Source: Gossypium raimondii
Taxonomy: Eukaryota; Streptophyta; Magnoliopsida; Malvales; Malvaceae
Direction: 5' to 3'
NCBI RefSeq assembly: GCF_025698545.1
Contig: NC_068577.1
Coordinates: forward strand, 2,761,501-2,825,500
Length of the DNA: 64,000 nt
Of this stretch, positions 6,091 through 52,324 are shown in pieces. Below the pieces are notes generated by a model that had not been told where the DNA came from, ran no database searches, and worked only from the letters and a program-made list of their open reading frames with translations. Every line of letters starts with the position of its first letter. Positions within the stretch are counted from its first letter, which is position 1. The translations under genes and the position numbers were made by a program.

Positions 6091-6968
6091 TCAATTAGGT
6101 ATAAGCTTAAAAGGAGGCTTGGCAAGTGCTGGTGATGGATCATATTTCCCGTAGTCTCTCATGTTTGCTCTAAGCAGCCTTTCATGGACTGCACTTGCTT
6201 CACCACTATCCTGTTTTTTAATTTATATTTTAAAAAATGATTAATCCACAAAACACAAAGTAAATATGTCAATTAAGGGAAATTTTAATGAAAAAAGAAA
6301 AAGAAAAAGTGGGTTTAGTTAATAATTTTAATAGGTAAAAGACTTTGGGGTTTATATATATATAAAAATTATCATCAAATTTGTCAACCATATTTAAAAA
6401 TAATAATAAAAAATATCATCACATTTCAAGCTTTGTCAACCATGATTGAAGGTTATGATTGACACCACCTAAAAATGAATTTTTGGTCAACAGTTCTTCA
6501 AGCACAAGCAATTTTTTCATTCCAAAGCCAACTTCCTCTTCCCTAGAGTTGGCGGGAACCGCCATGGAAGGTTAAACCCAAACTAAGATACTACTGGTTA
6601 AACCATATATATAATTATACGCACACAGTCTATGAAATGCACAAACCTCAAAGCTTGCATCCGTTTCCTCAGCCAACAAGTTCAGGAACTTGGGTCGTCG
6701 ACCTGTAAAATTGGGTCGTCAAACTGTTTATGTATTCTAAACCCTAAACAACTCTTGTTTTTTGTAGTTTTAAGGTGATGAAATCGATTGATCATTAAGT
6801 AATCCGATACAAAGATTTCGTGGACAAAGCGTGCATGACTTTTGCACCAGATTAAAGCTGCAGCACAAAAGAAAAGAGACATTGAAGAAAGAACCCACCT
6901 GCCATTGAAGTTGATAAAAGAAAAGCTGAAACCATGACAAAAAGTAGAACAATCTTCTTCACATGCAT
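6091..6968 (-). CDS. CIF: CIF-type sulfated peptide precursor (Casparian strip integrity factor-like)
   Basis: Three exons on the minus strand, 6899-6968, 6647-6702 and 6091-6210, join in frame at GT-AG sites to give 81 residues. Residues 1-23 form a signal peptide: two lysines, then a hydrophobic core ending STSMA. The middle part is GRRPKFLNLLAEETDASFE. The last 21 residues begin DYGKYDPSP and end KPPFKLIPN just before the stop. That C-terminus has the hallmarks of CIF1/CIF2: the Asp-Tyr start, where the Tyr is sulfated by TPST, and the PPFKLIPN end. In Arabidopsis these peptides are ligands of the root receptor kinase GSO1/SGN3 and control Casparian strip closure. Processing and sulfation here are inferred by family. 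The 'AVHERLLRAN' stretch before DY is also typical. No neighbour is functionally related. A TATA motif lies about 90 bp upstream of the start. Confidence 0.85.
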
Positions 6969-7054: not shown

Positions 7055-7062
7055 TATATATA
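7055..7062 (-). promoter_or_regulatory. TATA box of the CIF-like gene
   Basis: TATATATA on the minus strand, 87 bp upstream of the start codon at 6968. It is the only TATA-like motif close to the gene in the right orientation. Confidence 0.45.
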
Positions 7063-7265
7063 TTGCAAACAACACATGAATTTCTAGCCAAGAGTGACCC
7101 ACAGGCCATAGAGTTAGGACCAAAATAATTGATTGTACTTTATGTTAAAGAATACATTCTTTTTAAGAAAATTATTTCACTTCACAAAATTGTATATGTT
7201 TTATTCGTAGTAAAAAGATAAACTTAGAAAATATTGAAGAAATATGTTGTGATATTTGAAACGAG

Positions 7266-7604
7266 TCAAAATTTGTTTTGGTACAATAGGGAAAAGAAAA
7301 AAAAATTATATTTGGAATCCTCGTGCAAGAGCGACAACAAACTTAAAGGTGGATTGGACAAATACAAACTAGCACCAGCAATAGCTTCTGTTTGAGCTAA
7401 ATTAGCAAGGTGATGAGCACACCGATTTTTTTCTCGAAGAATGTGATGGACATTCGGTACCCGACCCTCCTGTATCAGGACTAAATAATCATCTATTAGT
7501 GTCCCCAAAGGGTGGCCAGCCTCAAAAGGTCGAGACAACATATTCACCACCCAAACTACGTCCTGTTTCACAATCAGTCGAGTGATTCCCAAACTCTTAA
7601 CTAC
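7266..7604 (-). pseudogene. LINE RNase H domain, C-terminal part (split by Copia insertion)
   Basis: Minus-strand frame with an RNase H (RVT_3) look: GITRLIVKQD, then IQEGRVPNVHHILREKNRCA and AHHLANLAQ. This is the C-terminal half of the RNase H fold found at the end of plant LINE ORF2. Its N-terminal half continues at 9984-10167 on the far side of the Copia element. The original open frame was interrupted by that insertion, so no full product can be made. Confidence 0.75.
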
Positions 7605-7609
7605 CAAAC

Positions 7610-8035
7610 TCTTAAGTATGACTCCTATTTTCAGTCAAATTTGAAAAATAATCTTTTAGTTAAACTCTGCTTATTTATTTCAGTCAAACACTGATTAGTT
7701 TAGATTATTTTATTATTATTTGACATATGAATTTAGCCTATAAATAGGCTCTTTTACAACCTTAGATAACACACCCATTAGATTAGAACTCATAACACAT
7801 TCAGAGAATTTTGTGTTTACGTTTTGAGGGTTCTTTGTTTTTCGGGTTTTCGGGGTTTAGTTTTATCTCCATCTTTTGTACTCTTAATTCTTTTGCCATT
7901 ATAGTAAAATTATCTTTGCCTGTGGTTTTTTATCCTCTTTGGAGGTGTTTTTCCACGTTAAATTTGTGTATTCATCTTCTCAATTTCTTCCGCTATTTTT
8001 ACTTGTTTGTTGCTTAATTGGGACGATCCCTAACA
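7610..8035 (+). repeat. 5' LTR of the Copia element
   Basis: 426 bp, ending CCCTAACA, with a TATA motif TATAAATA at 7739-7746. It begins TC where the 3' copy begins TG, a point change in the terminal dinucleotide. Confidence 0.9.
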
Positions 8036-8082
8036 AGTGGTATCAGAGCTAGTTCAATTTTTATAGATCAACCCATTCAGAT

Positions 8083-9237
8083 ATGGCAACAACAAGATTT
8101 GAAATTGAGAAGTTCGATGGTGAGACAAATTTCAATCTGTGGCAAGTTCGGATGATGGCAATTTTAGTTCAATCCGGTTTGAAAAAAGTTGTTACCGGGA
8201 AAAAGCCTGAGAATCTAAATAAAACAGAATGGGAAGAGTTTGATGAAAAGGCCTTGTCTGCAATCCAGTTGTGCCTCAAGAATACGGTATTGCAGGAGGT
8301 ATTGATGGAGAAGACATCATCCGCCTTGTGGAAAAGGTTAGAAACTCTTTATGCGACTAAGTCTTTGGCTAACTATTTAATGTTGAAACAACGTCTATTT
8401 ACGTTTCGCATGAACGAAGGTGAGCTTTTTAGAGATCACATCAGTCAATTCTTTACTCTTTTAAATGATTTAAAGAACGTTGAGGTTCATATTGATGATG
8501 AAGATCAAGCTATGCTATTATTGTGCTCTTTACCCCCTTCATACAAGTCTTTCAGGGAGACCCTGATTTATGGCAGAGACAAAATCTCGTTTGAAAATGT
8601 GAAGGGTCATTTGTTGAGTAGAGACAAACTTGACAATGAGCTTCATTTGGATAGCAAGGCAAATAGGCAAGCTTCCGTTTTGGTAGCATCAAAGAAACGA
8701 GACAAAAGGTGTCGCTATTGTAAAAAGTTAGGTCACGTCAAAGCAGATTGTTATAAACTGCGAACTAAAAGAGCTGCTGAGAGTAACGAGGAAGATGTAG
8801 CTGATGCTAATTTGGCCGATGAAAGCGGTGATGATTTCTTGTTAGTGTCAACGAGCGATAACTCCAAGCTCACGTCCGAGTGAATTCTAGATTCGGGATG
8901 TTCTTTCCACATGTGTCCCAATAGAGAATGGTTCTCTACATACAGTTCGGTTGAAGGTGGAGTTGTGCGCATGGGAAACGATTCATCTAGTAAGGTAATT
9001 GGTATTAGTACTGTTAAAATTAGGATACATGATGGGACGATTAGGACACTCTCAGATGTCAGGTATGTAGCTGATTTACGAAAGAATCACATCTTCTTGA
9101 GTATTTTAGACTTGAAAGGATGCAGAATCAACATCAAGTCAAGCAGCATTAAAGTATCTCATGGAGCTCTCGTTTTGTTAAAAGGTAAAAGAACTGGCAG
9201 TCTTTATATTCTGGAAGGTTCTACGGTGGATCGGTGA
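8083..9237 (+). pseudogene. Copia gag-protease reading frame, broken by a stop at 8881
   Basis: The first 266 codons (8083-8883) form a UBN2-type Copia gag: N-terminal 'KFDGETNFNLWQVRM', a central 'SLPPSYKSFRETL', and a CCHC knuckle CRYCKKLGHVKADC near residue 209. A TGA at 8881-8883 stands where Copia proteases usually have Trp. Beyond it the same frame continues ILDSGCSFHMCPN, which carries the DSG protease active-site motif, up to a stop at 9235. From 9278 the pre-integrase signature ('RQLGHKREKCM') follows in a shifted frame. The missing later domains and these breaks mean only gag could be made. Confidence 0.85.
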
Positions 9238-9557
9238 AATCGGACGTCCTCGTCTGCTCTGATCGAAGTCAACTCGTTTGGAGCGGAGGCAACTTGGTCA
9301 TAAGAGGGAAAAATGTATGACCGTTTCATTGAAGAGAGGTTTTCTTTTGGATGCAGGTTTTGAAAAGTTAGGGCACTGTGTTCGTGAAAATCAAACCCAG
9401 GTTAGTTTTGATTTGGCAGTGTACAAGTCGAAGGCTAGAAGTCTTCCAGTTTCTAAGCACAGATTCGACTCAATTAATTCCCTGCATAGTTCAAGATAGG
9501 CTCGTGGCGGGCTTTGGCAAAGATGGCGTTATGGAAATATGAGTCAAGGTGGAGATT

Positions 9558-9983
9558 TGTTAAGTATGACTCCTATTTTCAGTCAAATTTGAAAAATAAT
9601 CTTTTAGTTAAACTCTGCTTATTTATTTCAGTCAAACACTGATTAGTTTAGATTATTTTATTATTATTTGACATATGAATTTAGCCTATAAATAGGTTCT
9701 TTTACAACCTTAGATAACACACCCATTAGATTAGAACTCATAACACATTCAGAGAATTTTGTGTTTACGTTTTGAGGGTTCTTTGTTTTTCGGGTTTTCG
9801 GGGTTTAGTTTTATCTCCATCTTTTGTACTCTTCATTCTTTTGCCATTATAGTAAAATTATCTTTGCCCGTGGTTTTTTATCCTCTTTGGAGGGGTTTTT
9901 CCACTTTAAATTTGTGTATTCATCTTCTCAATTTCTTCCGCTATTTTTACTTGTTTGTTGCTTAATCGGGACGATCCCTAACA
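9558..9983 (+). repeat. 3' LTR of the Copia element
   Basis: 426 bp, starts TGTTAAG and ends CCCTAACA. It matches the 5' LTR at an offset of 1948 bp with no indels. The TATA motif is at 9687-9694. Confidence 0.9.
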
Positions 9984-22118: not shown

Positions 22119-22469
22119 TCACCATTGCTTCCATTGAAGAAAAGTGATGATATCTTCCAAAGACTGTAATCTGCAGCTAAGTTCATTGGTTTGAGCTCTA
22201 AGCACTGAGTTTTCAGCCTCAACATGCAAGTAACTCTGCGACGTTATGTTTAAACTCAGTATAATCTGATGATTATCTTCCCTCAACTGAGTTAACTCAG
22301 CCGTCAGATCATCCAAATGCTTCTTCTTCCTCATCCTCGACCTCCTCGCTGATTCTCTGTTCGATGCCTTCCTTTTCCTCTTCCTTTCTTCCATCAATAA
22401 TGCCTGCAACTCCTCTGACACTTGTGTCACCGTTGATGCCCCCGAAGATGTCCCACTCAAAGAACCCAT
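22119..22469 (-). CDS. S1-group bZIP transcription factor (bZIP11/bZIP2-like)
   Basis: A single-exon protein of 116 residues. The basic region (about residues 29-49) has the N-x7-R signature in 'SNRESARRSRMRKKK'. The leucine zipper follows with heptad Leu, Ile and Val ('HLDDLTAELTQLREDN', 'ENSVLRAQTNELSCRLQSL'). The N-terminal 'GTSSGAS' and the block 'NITSQSYLHVEAENSVLRAQ' are typical of group S1, which binds ACGT boxes and controls amino-acid and sugar metabolism, often as dimers with group C. The leader carries a sucrose-control type uORF 67 bp upstream. Relatives are about 140-170 residues; here the frame ends after 'FLQWKQW', where relatives read 'FLN..NG', so the end looks altered by a one-base shift. 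Confidence 0.88.
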   Translation of the reverse strand: MGSLSGTSSGASTVTQVSEELQALLMEERKRKRKASNRESARRSRMRKKKHLDDLTAELTQLREDNHQIILSLNITSQSYLHVEAENSVLRAQTNELSCRLQSLEDIITFLQWKQW

Positions 22470-22535: not shown

Positions 22536-22634
22536 TTAGTAATGATAATATAACCAGTAGAGGAAAACCACTGAGAGGGATTGAACAAGAATCATAAACC
22601 CTGAAAGAAAGGTTTCACTCAGAATTTGAGACAT
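22536..22634 (-). CDS. Sucrose-control uORF peptide (SC-uORF)
   Basis: A 32-codon open frame in the bZIP leader. It starts MSQILSETFLSGFM and ends ILVQSLSVVFLYWLYYHY. Conserved SC peptides of S1 bZIP genes share LSE..SGFM and (H)LVQSFSVVFLYWFY. In Arabidopsis bZIP11 this nascent peptide stalls ribosomes when sucrose is high and so lowers bZIP translation. The usual basic middle (INSS.RRRTH) is missing here, which shortens the peptide from about 42 to 32 residues while keeping the frame. The C-terminal aromatic block is retained with changes. Confidence 0.85.
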   Translation of the reverse strand: MSQILSETFLSGFMILVQSLSVVFLYWLYYHY

Positions 22635-37710: not shown

Positions 37711-40700
37711 ATGTCAGGGCCACTAGATCGATTTGCTAGGCCTTGTGAGTTGACATTTTTCGTTTTTTCTTTTGAACTTATTTTACTATTTCTGACGTAA
37801 CATTTTATATTCAGTTTGGTTGCTTAGGAAATCCTGGTAGTGCCGATAGAGAAGGAGAAATTTAGAACTTGTTTTGACGAAAGAAGAAAGGGAATCGATT
37901 CTTGTTTAGTCTTTCAGATTATTTTCGTTTACTATGTATTCAATTTGTGTCTTAGTTTGGTAATTTTACAATGCTTTGTTGATTTTGTGTTTTAGGATTT
38001 TCTGAACAATTTTCAGATAATATATATCTATGAGAAGAAAAAGCAACTATAATTAGATTTTCGCTTTGGTTTTTCTTGTCCTTTCTTTATCTAACAACGG
38101 TACTTGTTTGTAAATGTAATCCTCTGGTACATGTTATGAGGTAGGCCTTGAGGGGTTTTAAGGTAGTGATGACCTGATTTTACTATTTCTGGCGTAACGT
38201 TTTATGTTCAGTTTCGTTGATTAGAAATTAGTGGTAGTGCAGATAGAGAAGGAGAAAGTTAAACTCATTTTGACCAAAGAAGAAAGGAAACCGATTCTTG
38301 ATTTGGTTTTCAGATATAAAATTGGAAAATTTAATCGTTATTTTTGTGTTTTAGTTTGGCAATTTTACCATGCTTTGTTGATTTTGTGTTTAATGTTTCT
38401 GAATAATTTTCAGAGATAATATATAAATCTGAGAAGAAAGAATAGAATTATAATTTGCTTTTTGCTTTGATTTTACAAGGAAATCAATTCTTTGATTTTT
38501 CTTAGTATTTCTTTGTTTAATAACAATTAATGACAATACTTATTTGAAATACAATCCTTTGGTATATTGTATGAGGTAGGCTTTGAGGGGGTTTCAGGCA
38601 GTGATGAGAAGAGAGAGAGGAAGTCCGATTTTGAGAACTCTGAAGATGAAAGACGCACGAAAATGGGATCTCTGAAAAAGAAAGCTTTAAATGCATCTAC
38701 TAGATTTAAGCATTCTCTCAAGAAGAAGAGTAGTAGAAGGAAAAGTGATGGCCGTGTCAGCTCTGTATCCATTGAGGATATTCGTGATGTTGAGGAGCTG
38801 CAGGCTGTTGATCAATTTCGGCAAGCATTGATTATGGAAGAATTGCTTCCGGAAAAACACGATGACTATCACAAGATGTTGAGGTGCTCACCTCATACTT
38901 TTTCTCATATTGTAGTTTACTATTGGCTTATTCTTTTATGATGCAAATTTTATAGGTTCCGTTCTCTTGTAAAGTAAGTGGTGGGCAACCTAGTTACCCA
39001 GCATTCTATGCATGCTATGTTGTATTTTCTCTGATGATTTACAAACTTTATTTCATTGATTAAACTTTTGGCTTGATTAGAAAAACATAATAAGAGTTGT
39101 GAGTTTTTTAGTCATGCTATTCTTTTGCTTTTAAAGCACAAGTTGGTTGCTTTCTGCTTGCTGATGTGATATATCCTTTCTGTATATGCTTGAAGGCTTC
39201 GGCATCATTCTGCTGCTCTCTCTTTTTCGCCAAGTTTTAATGCTGCTAGAAGAAATAATTAATTCTAGCCTTGCTTTTACATAGGTTTTTGAAAGCAAGG
39301 AAGTTTGATATCGATAAAGCTAAACACATGTGGGCAGATATGCTCCAATGGAGGAAGGAGTTTGGTTCTGACACCATTATTGAGGTAATTACTGTTCACT
39401 TTTTGCCTGAAGTAGCATTGATTGTCATCCGTGTTTTCACTGCATTTTTGTCCTTGTTTTTCAGGATTTTGAGTTTTCAGAGTTGAATGAGGTTTTAAAT
39501 TATTACCCTCAGGGCTATCATGGTGTTGATAAGGAGGGTAGACCTGTGTATATTGAAAGATTGGGAAAAGTTGATCCCAACAAACTGATGCAAGTTACAA
39601 CTTTGGATCGGTATGTAAAATACCATGTCCGGGAATTTGAGAAGGCCTTCAGTGTTAAGTTTCCTGCTTGTACAATTGCAGCAAGGAGGCACATTGATTC
39701 AAGCACTACAATTTTAGATGTTCATGGTGTGGTATGTGTTTTGTTATCATTTGTTGCCTTTTTAATACCAGAATATTTTGCTGCCACGTAGTTGCTAAGT
39801 GTTGATTGTTTTTCTTTTCACCTATTATTAGGGCTTTAAGAATTTTACCAAGTCTGCAAGGGAACTGATTATGCGACTGCAAAAGATTGATGGTGACAAC
39901 TACCCTGAGGTCTGCCATCTCAATGTGCTTGCATGTTGAATTACAAAGTCATGCTTCTATCAAAGTTCTTATATTGTTTTATGTTGAGCCGAAATTTTAT
40001 GCTGTTTCCTTATCGCTTATGCAGACGCTTCACCAAATGTTTATCATCAATGCTGGACCTGGGTTTAGGCTGCTGTGGAACACTGTGAAGACGTTTTTGG
40101 ATCCCAAAACAACTTCAAAGATCCATGTATTTGAATAATTTTTCTGCTATATTTTTGAAATTGTGTATATTTCTTTTTTCTCTTCAATTCTCATTCCCTT
40201 TATTTGTTGGTGATTTCTAATCATACATAAATGTAATGTGCATTGACTTTAGGTTATTGGAAACAAGTACCAGAGCAAATTGCTTGAGATCATTGATGCC
40301 TGGTAGGTCTTAGAACTTCCATGACATGTTATGTTGTTGACTTATCTCTATCTTACTCTAGTTTTCAATACAACTTTTCCCATCATTCTTTGCACCTAAA
40401 ATATATCTTTTACTATCTATCACTCTATGGTTGGTTCATTCTATCAAAAAGCTTACAGTGATATTTAAATTCCATTCAGTGAGTTGCCAGAATTTCTGGG
40501 TGGTAGCTGTACTTGTGCAGATCAGGGAGGGTGCCTTCGCTCTGATAAAGGGCCTTGGAGAAATCCTGAAATATTGAAGGTTATAAGCTGGTCTTGGTTT
40601 ATAATATGTTGCTGATGCTGTTAATTTCAAGGGCTTGATCAGCGTACTTTGTAACCAAAAAAACATTTCATTGTGTGTATTTTCTCTCAGATGGTTGTTA

Positions 40701-47249: not shown

Positions 47250-52324
<5,075 letters not shown>

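Follow-up and report, generated by a model that had tools for sequence, protein, structure and literature searches.

Does the minus strand at 6091-6968 of the window, by which we mean the whole 64,000-nucleotide stretch of Gossypium raimondii DNA analysed here (C13:2761501-2825500), encode a complete CIF-type sulfated peptide precursor, and, if so, is that precursor an unusual member of its family? The first-pass annotation had proposed a complete gene of three short exons (70, 56 and 120 nt), whose precursor begins with a signal peptide and closes with a peptide DY...KPPFKLIPN, and had held the middle of the peptide to be a notable departure from CIF1/CIF2. Joined translation reproduced the exon lengths, coordinates and junctions as well as the 81-residue product, and the complete gene was thereby borne out; the proposal about the peptide middle fared differently, as discussed below. 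A short gene in three exons such as this one is overlooked by simple ORF calling, and a correct model of it helps work on the root barrier and on salt and nutrient uptake in this plant.

The three exons join in frame to encode the precursor MHVKKIVLLFVMVSAFLLSTSMAG-RRPKFLNLLAEETDASFE-DSGEASAVHERLLRANMR-DYGKYDPSPALAKPPFKLIPN followed by a stop codon, the last of these segments being the C-terminal end (Table 1). Residues 5-20 are strongly hydrophobic by hydropathy and are followed by SMA/G, as judged by eye, so that the N-terminus is a signal-peptide-like, putative secretion signal. Both introns have GT-AG borders, the donors given in Table 1 being paired with the acceptors TTTTACAG/GTC for intron 1 and AAAAACAG/GAT for intron 2, and the pyrimidine tract of the intron 2 acceptor (AAATTAAAAAACAG) is poor. 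Scored against what we take to be the eight-letter donor consensus, the donors used are two of only three GT sites with at least 5 of the 8 consensus letters in the 1.2 kb scanned. Skipping of exon 2 was ruled out as a working frame: exon 1 (70 nt) stops in phase 1, and only together with the 56 nt of exon 2 (126 nt in all) is the frame kept. An alternative in-frame acceptor inside exon 3 was likewise rejected, as none of the nine AGs from 6205 to 6155 lies at a multiple of three from 6210. At the other end of the gene, Asn21 of the mature peptide directly precedes TGA, with no extension, unlike CIF4. Pro7 and Pro9 are both present, as in the CIF1/2 type, and are candidates for hydroxylation.

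Table 1. Features of the CIF-type gene and of its neighbours, in window coordinates
Feature	Position	Strand	Description	Evidence
Exon 1	6899..6968	-	70 nt; ATG, hydrophobic signal-peptide-like segment MHVKKIVLLFVMVSAFLLSTSMA; donor CAG/GTGGGT	joined translation, hydropathy; conserved in C3 copy
Intron 1	6703..6898	-	196 nt, GT-AG, phase 1	5' part conserved with C3 copy
Exon 2	6647..6702	-	56 nt; propeptide ...GRRPKFLNLLAEETDASFE; donor GAG/GTTTGT	C3 exon of equal length with equal junctions
Intron 2	6211..6646	-	436 nt, GT-AG, phase 0; acceptor with weak pyrimidine tract	
Exon 3	6091..6210	-	120 nt including stop; DSGEASAVHERLLRANMR, mature peptide and TGA	
Mature CIF1/2-type peptide	6094..6156	-	DYGKYDPSPALAKPPFKLIPN; ends at stop codon, no C-terminal extension	match to PDB 6s6q_C; 18/21 to GmXAP3 and SlCIF1
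TATA-like box (candidate only)	7057..7062	-	about 95 bp upstream of ATG	pattern match; C3 copy partly alike only
Upstream block	7105..7164	-	45/60 bases common to region upstream of C3 copy	BLASTN between upstream regions of the two copies
bZIP	22469-22119	-	neighbouring gene	bZIP domain by Pfam
SEC14-like, opposite orientation	39471-39731	+	neighbouring gene	CRAL_TRIO domain by Pfam
SEC14-like	46350-46090	-	neighbouring gene	CRAL_TRIO domain by Pfam

The peptide itself is plainly of the CIF1/CIF2 kind. Across the six-frame translation of the window, the last 21 residues are the top CIF1/CIF2-like 21-mer, with a BLOSUM62 score of 85 as against 29 for the next best, and the best such 21-mer in each of eight first-order Markov shuffles scored 21-40. 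A search of PDB sequences with the precursor, at E up to 10, returned a single distinct match, CIF2 (6s6q_C; E = 5.7e-4, residues 61-81). At the same limit a Pfam search of the precursor returned no family, and neither a search of viral_contigs found a relative nor a PMC text search the string DYGKYD. Compared with reference peptide sequences taken from published papers, the mature peptide is identical at 18/21 positions to soybean GmXAP3, at 18/21 to tomato SlCIF1, at 15/21 to CIF1 and at 14/21 to CIF2. The precursor, at 81 residues, is also close in length to the 83 residues published for each of the two Arabidopsis proteins.

What settled the model was a second gene copy that shares its exons and junctions. 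Within the 750,779,957 bases (281 contigs) of the genome searched, the product of exon 3 is encoded at two places, the C13 window and contig C3, and a degenerate pattern for PPF(K/R)LIPN followed by a stop codon matched at these same two. In the C3 copy (C3:61531633-61533008), the exons measure 73, 56 and 123 nt and are joined at the same residues as in the window gene, and the introns are longer; it encodes the 83-residue precursor MHNLKKIVLLLFLVSTFLLSTSMAG-RQSKFVNMLAEEVDAAFE-EEGVEGEAIHERLLRANTK-DYGRYDPTPALVKPPFKLIPN. The two precursors align over their whole length, with 60 of 83 columns identical, and hence also upstream of the DY motif, where a failure to align had been fixed beforehand as counting against the gene. 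The mature peptides, DYGKYDPSPALAKPPFKLIPN in the window and DYGRYDPTPALVKPPFKLIPN on C3, are identical at 18 of 21 positions. By the NG86 method the whole coding sequences differ with dN 0.163 and dS 0.35 (ratio 0.46, 81 codons). Within the mature peptide there are 3 nonsynonymous changes in 48.2 sites and 5 synonymous changes in 14.8 sites, a ratio of 0.145 from small numbers, and on this codon comparison the mature peptide appears constrained between the two copies. The propeptide gives 0.46, also from small numbers, and the first 24 codons, the signal-peptide part, give 1.65, i.e., no constraint, a value based on just 1 synonymous change and 5 nonsynonymous ones.

The neighbourhood supports the same assignment. 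Read on the minus strand, the window holds SEC14-like, SEC14-like, bZIP and CIF genes in that order, and the block on C3 comprises SEC14 (61496594, +), SEC14 (61503077, -), bZIP (61518459, +) and CIF (+), so that neighbour order and orientations are identical in the two blocks. In the Arabidopsis literature, At4g34580 is SFH1 (SEC14 type), At4g34590 is bZIP11 and At4g34600 is CIF2, with At2g16380 (SFH7) and At2g16385 (CIF1) forming a similar pair; in tomato, Solyc01g109860 and 109870 are SEC14-like, 109880 is a bZIP gene and 109895/109900 is CIF. Judging from these consecutive locus numbers, SEC14, bZIP and CIF genes would be adjacent in both species. One paper has CIF2 as At4g34300 and the tomato gene as Solyc01g099895; we took these as misprints, as other papers give At4g34600 and Solyc01g109895. 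The order of neighbours is strong support for orthology and is independent of the short peptide. Two CIF1/2 genes in matching blocks, as compared with one reported for tomato, fit a block or whole-genome duplication. Elsewhere in the genome, SEC14 and bZIP matches lie about 7 kb apart at C4:2517398/2524185 and at C11:43159377/43166012 without CIF1/2, and a SEC14 pair on C12 (3685019, 3690861) has neither a bZIP match nearby nor CIF1/2. The C4, C11 and C12 pairs suggest traces of further ancient copies of the block, with CIF kept in two.

We therefore consider it very probable that the window carries an intact CASPARIAN STRIP INTEGRITY FACTOR gene of the CIF1/CIF2 type, orthologous to At4g34600/At2g16385 and SlCIF1, whose product would be a root-stele peptide for SGN3/GSO1. 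According to published work, CIF1 and CIF2 are made in the stele and sulfated by TPST; as long as the Casparian strip still leaks, they diffuse to the endodermis, where they meet SGN3/GSO1 (and GSO2), and their signalling ends after the strip has been sealed. Published work on tomato places SlCIF promoter activity and expression in the root stele, as for CIF1/2, and describes an interrupted strip in slsgn3 mutants. Transcription, sulfation, hydroxylation, receptor and role of the window gene would by analogy follow those of its orthologues. On this basis, the 81-residue precursor would be taken into the secretory pathway, its C-terminal 21-mer would be sulfated on Tyr2 and hydroxylated on Pro7 and Pro9 (perhaps Pro14), and one cut before the DY motif would suffice to free the mature peptide, as the peptide already ends at the stop codon. 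The peptide would probably be made in the root stele, leak outward via gaps in the Casparian strip and, for as long as these stay open, reach SGN3/GSO1 (and GSO2) on the endodermis. For binding to SGN3/GSO1 and GSO2, the pertinent observation is the likeness of the peptide to CIF2 in PDB 6s6q. A search for plant sulfotransferase with PF03567, the family to which we take TPST to belong, gave no match in this genome or in any of 14 control genomes and is thus uninformative on TPST.

With two genes of this type present, the work may have been divided between them. The window copy differs from the tomato peptide in having Lys4 for Arg, Ser8 for Thr and Ala12 for Ser, and has an LTR element upstream; the C3 copy, identical to the tomato peptide at 20 of 21 positions and closer to it than the window copy is, has the nearest sequence. 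A window copy with its own expression or receptor affinity is conceivable on these grounds, though we regard it as unlikely.

The element in question is a young copia-type LTR element on the plus strand at 7610-9983 (LTRs 7610-8035 and 9558-9983, 419 of 426 positions identical) with the target-site repeat CAAAC, a gag region and a piece of Pol_BBD; neither an integrase nor a reverse-transcriptase domain turned up in the two of its open frames that were searched. It begins 641 bp upstream of the CIF ATG and might alter expression of the gene. Another reading, in which the C3 copy does the work and the window copy is silenced or decaying after losing promoter function to the insertion, could draw on the closeness and youth of the element and on changes in a neighbouring gene of the block, i.e., the shortened uORF and the shorter C-terminus of the window bZIP relative to the C3 bZIP. 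However, the window gene is intact in its frame, its start and stop codons and each of its four splice borders, the mature peptide appears constrained between the copies, and the 641 bp upstream of the ATG, including the block shared with C3, are uninterrupted by the element. We hold silencing or decay to be quite improbable.

Further sequence that may stem from such elements lies on both sides of the CIF gene. An open frame at 7266-7634 (-), which reaches the end of the LTR, matches RVT_3 (reverse-transcriptase-like/RNase H) and is probably the remnant of an older element; the LTR element would have inserted within it or next to it. Stretches at 1421-1721 show 76-84% complementarity to the LTR of the element at 7610-9983 and may be left over from a relative of it.

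The neighbouring bZIP gene has changes of its own. Upstream of it lies a uORF of 32 residues at 22536-22634 (-), MSQILSETFLSGFMILVQSLSVVFLYWLYYHY, which resembles the sucrose-control uORF of group-S bZIP genes, a group listed in a published paper. Among the 12 bZIP loci fetched from this genome, one of which is the window's own, 8 related loci were tested for this uORF, and all 8 have nine extra residues (such as NSTFIRRTQ) between GFMI and LVQS. The window uORF is shortened in frame by 27 nt, which might affect sucrose control. The window bZIP (22119-22469, -) ends at 116 residues (...ITFLQWKQW), while the C3 copy continues for more than 30 residues beyond that point; from the uORF change and the shorter C-terminus together, the window bZIP copy may be drifting.

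We return to the middle of the CIF peptide, KYDPSPALA with its second Tyr, which, it had been suggested, could alter sulfation or the preference for GSO1 or GSO2, and the tissue role. Compared with Arabidopsis CIF1 (At2g16385) and CIF2 (At4g34600), the window peptide shares the DYG start, Pro7 and Pro9 and the PPFKLIPN end and differs at residues 4-6 and 10-12: Arabidopsis has NNS/HSS where the window has KYD and RLER/KLVR where it has ALAK, and lacks the second Tyr. Tyr5 is moreover followed by Asp, and a review notes that Asp or Glu near a Tyr favours TPST. Nevertheless, the same middle is found in the soybean peptide GmXAP3, DYGRYDPSPSLSKPPFKLIPN (GmXAP3a/b; Glyma.13G201100, Glyma.12G235600), in the tomato peptide SlCIF1, DYGRYDPTPALSKPPFKLIPN (Solyc01g109895, also given as Solyc01g109900), and in the C3 copy. 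All of these and the window peptide have in common xYDPxPxL with Tyr5, and the soybean and tomato peptides share the C-terminus as well; relative to GmXAP3, the window has Lys4 for Arg and Ala10 and Ala12 for Ser.

The published tables likewise do not indicate altered sulfation. In the soybean and tomato mass-spectrometry searches, tyrosine sulfation was allowed as a variable modification. The GmXAP3 forms in the soybean table are sulfated at Tyr2 or not at all and are hydroxylated at Pro7, 9 or 14; for the complete 21-mer the table gives Hyp9,14 only. The tomato SlCIF1 representative carries sulfo-Tyr2 and Hyp9 with Tyr5 plain. Such tables, which mark Tyr2 and not Tyr5, give no reason to expect sulfation of Tyr5, though they are no proof that Tyr5 is never sulfated. 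Tomato SlCIF, which has Tyr5, is moreover reported as expressed in the stele. A divergent CIF with changed sulfation, receptor preference and tissue role is thus very improbable. Soybean (a rosid), tomato (an asterid) and the two gene copies studied here all have the "YDPxPxL" form with Tyr5, so that, on the peptides compared, the middle of Arabidopsis CIF1/CIF2 looks derived and looks a poor yardstick. The window gene is an ordinary CIF1/2 family member of this plant, with no novelty in Tyr5.

Membership of another branch of the family, i.e., a pollen or embryo peptide of the CIF3, CIF4 or TWS1 type, is hardly credible. These peptides share the DY start and the Pro-rich middle, but the comparison with CIF1-CIF4 and TWS1 that had been proposed as a check places CIF1 and CIF2 (15/21, 14/21) well above CIF3 (7/21), CIF4 (8/23) and TWS1 (9/25), and against TWS1 the score of the window peptide is reached by 12 of 500 shuffled peptides. 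The endings of the CIF3, CIF4 and TWS1 types (...PxPIPH, PGPVPH, PGPIEH) are absent from the window peptide, which ends in KPPFKLIPN with PPFKLIPN directly before the stop, as in CIF1/2. There is also a separate CIF4-like candidate on C6 (C6:345244-345306), a peptide frame EDYGVWNPTPRSGGAYASPVPHAA followed by a stop codon, which is 67% identical to CIF4 with a weak E-value of 0.476; given this frame, the genome probably also has a pollen-type ligand.

Finally, a chance reading of unrelated exons, with which the missing Pfam match would agree, is in effect refuted by the C3 copy, which has the same exons and lies in a matching neighbourhood; the score is also far above those of the eight shuffles.

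Rfam and tRNA searches across the window found nothing. At 48062-48604 (+) lies the first exon of a PLP-dependent decarboxylase (Orn_Arg_deC_N), which we presume to be a diaminopimelate decarboxylase.
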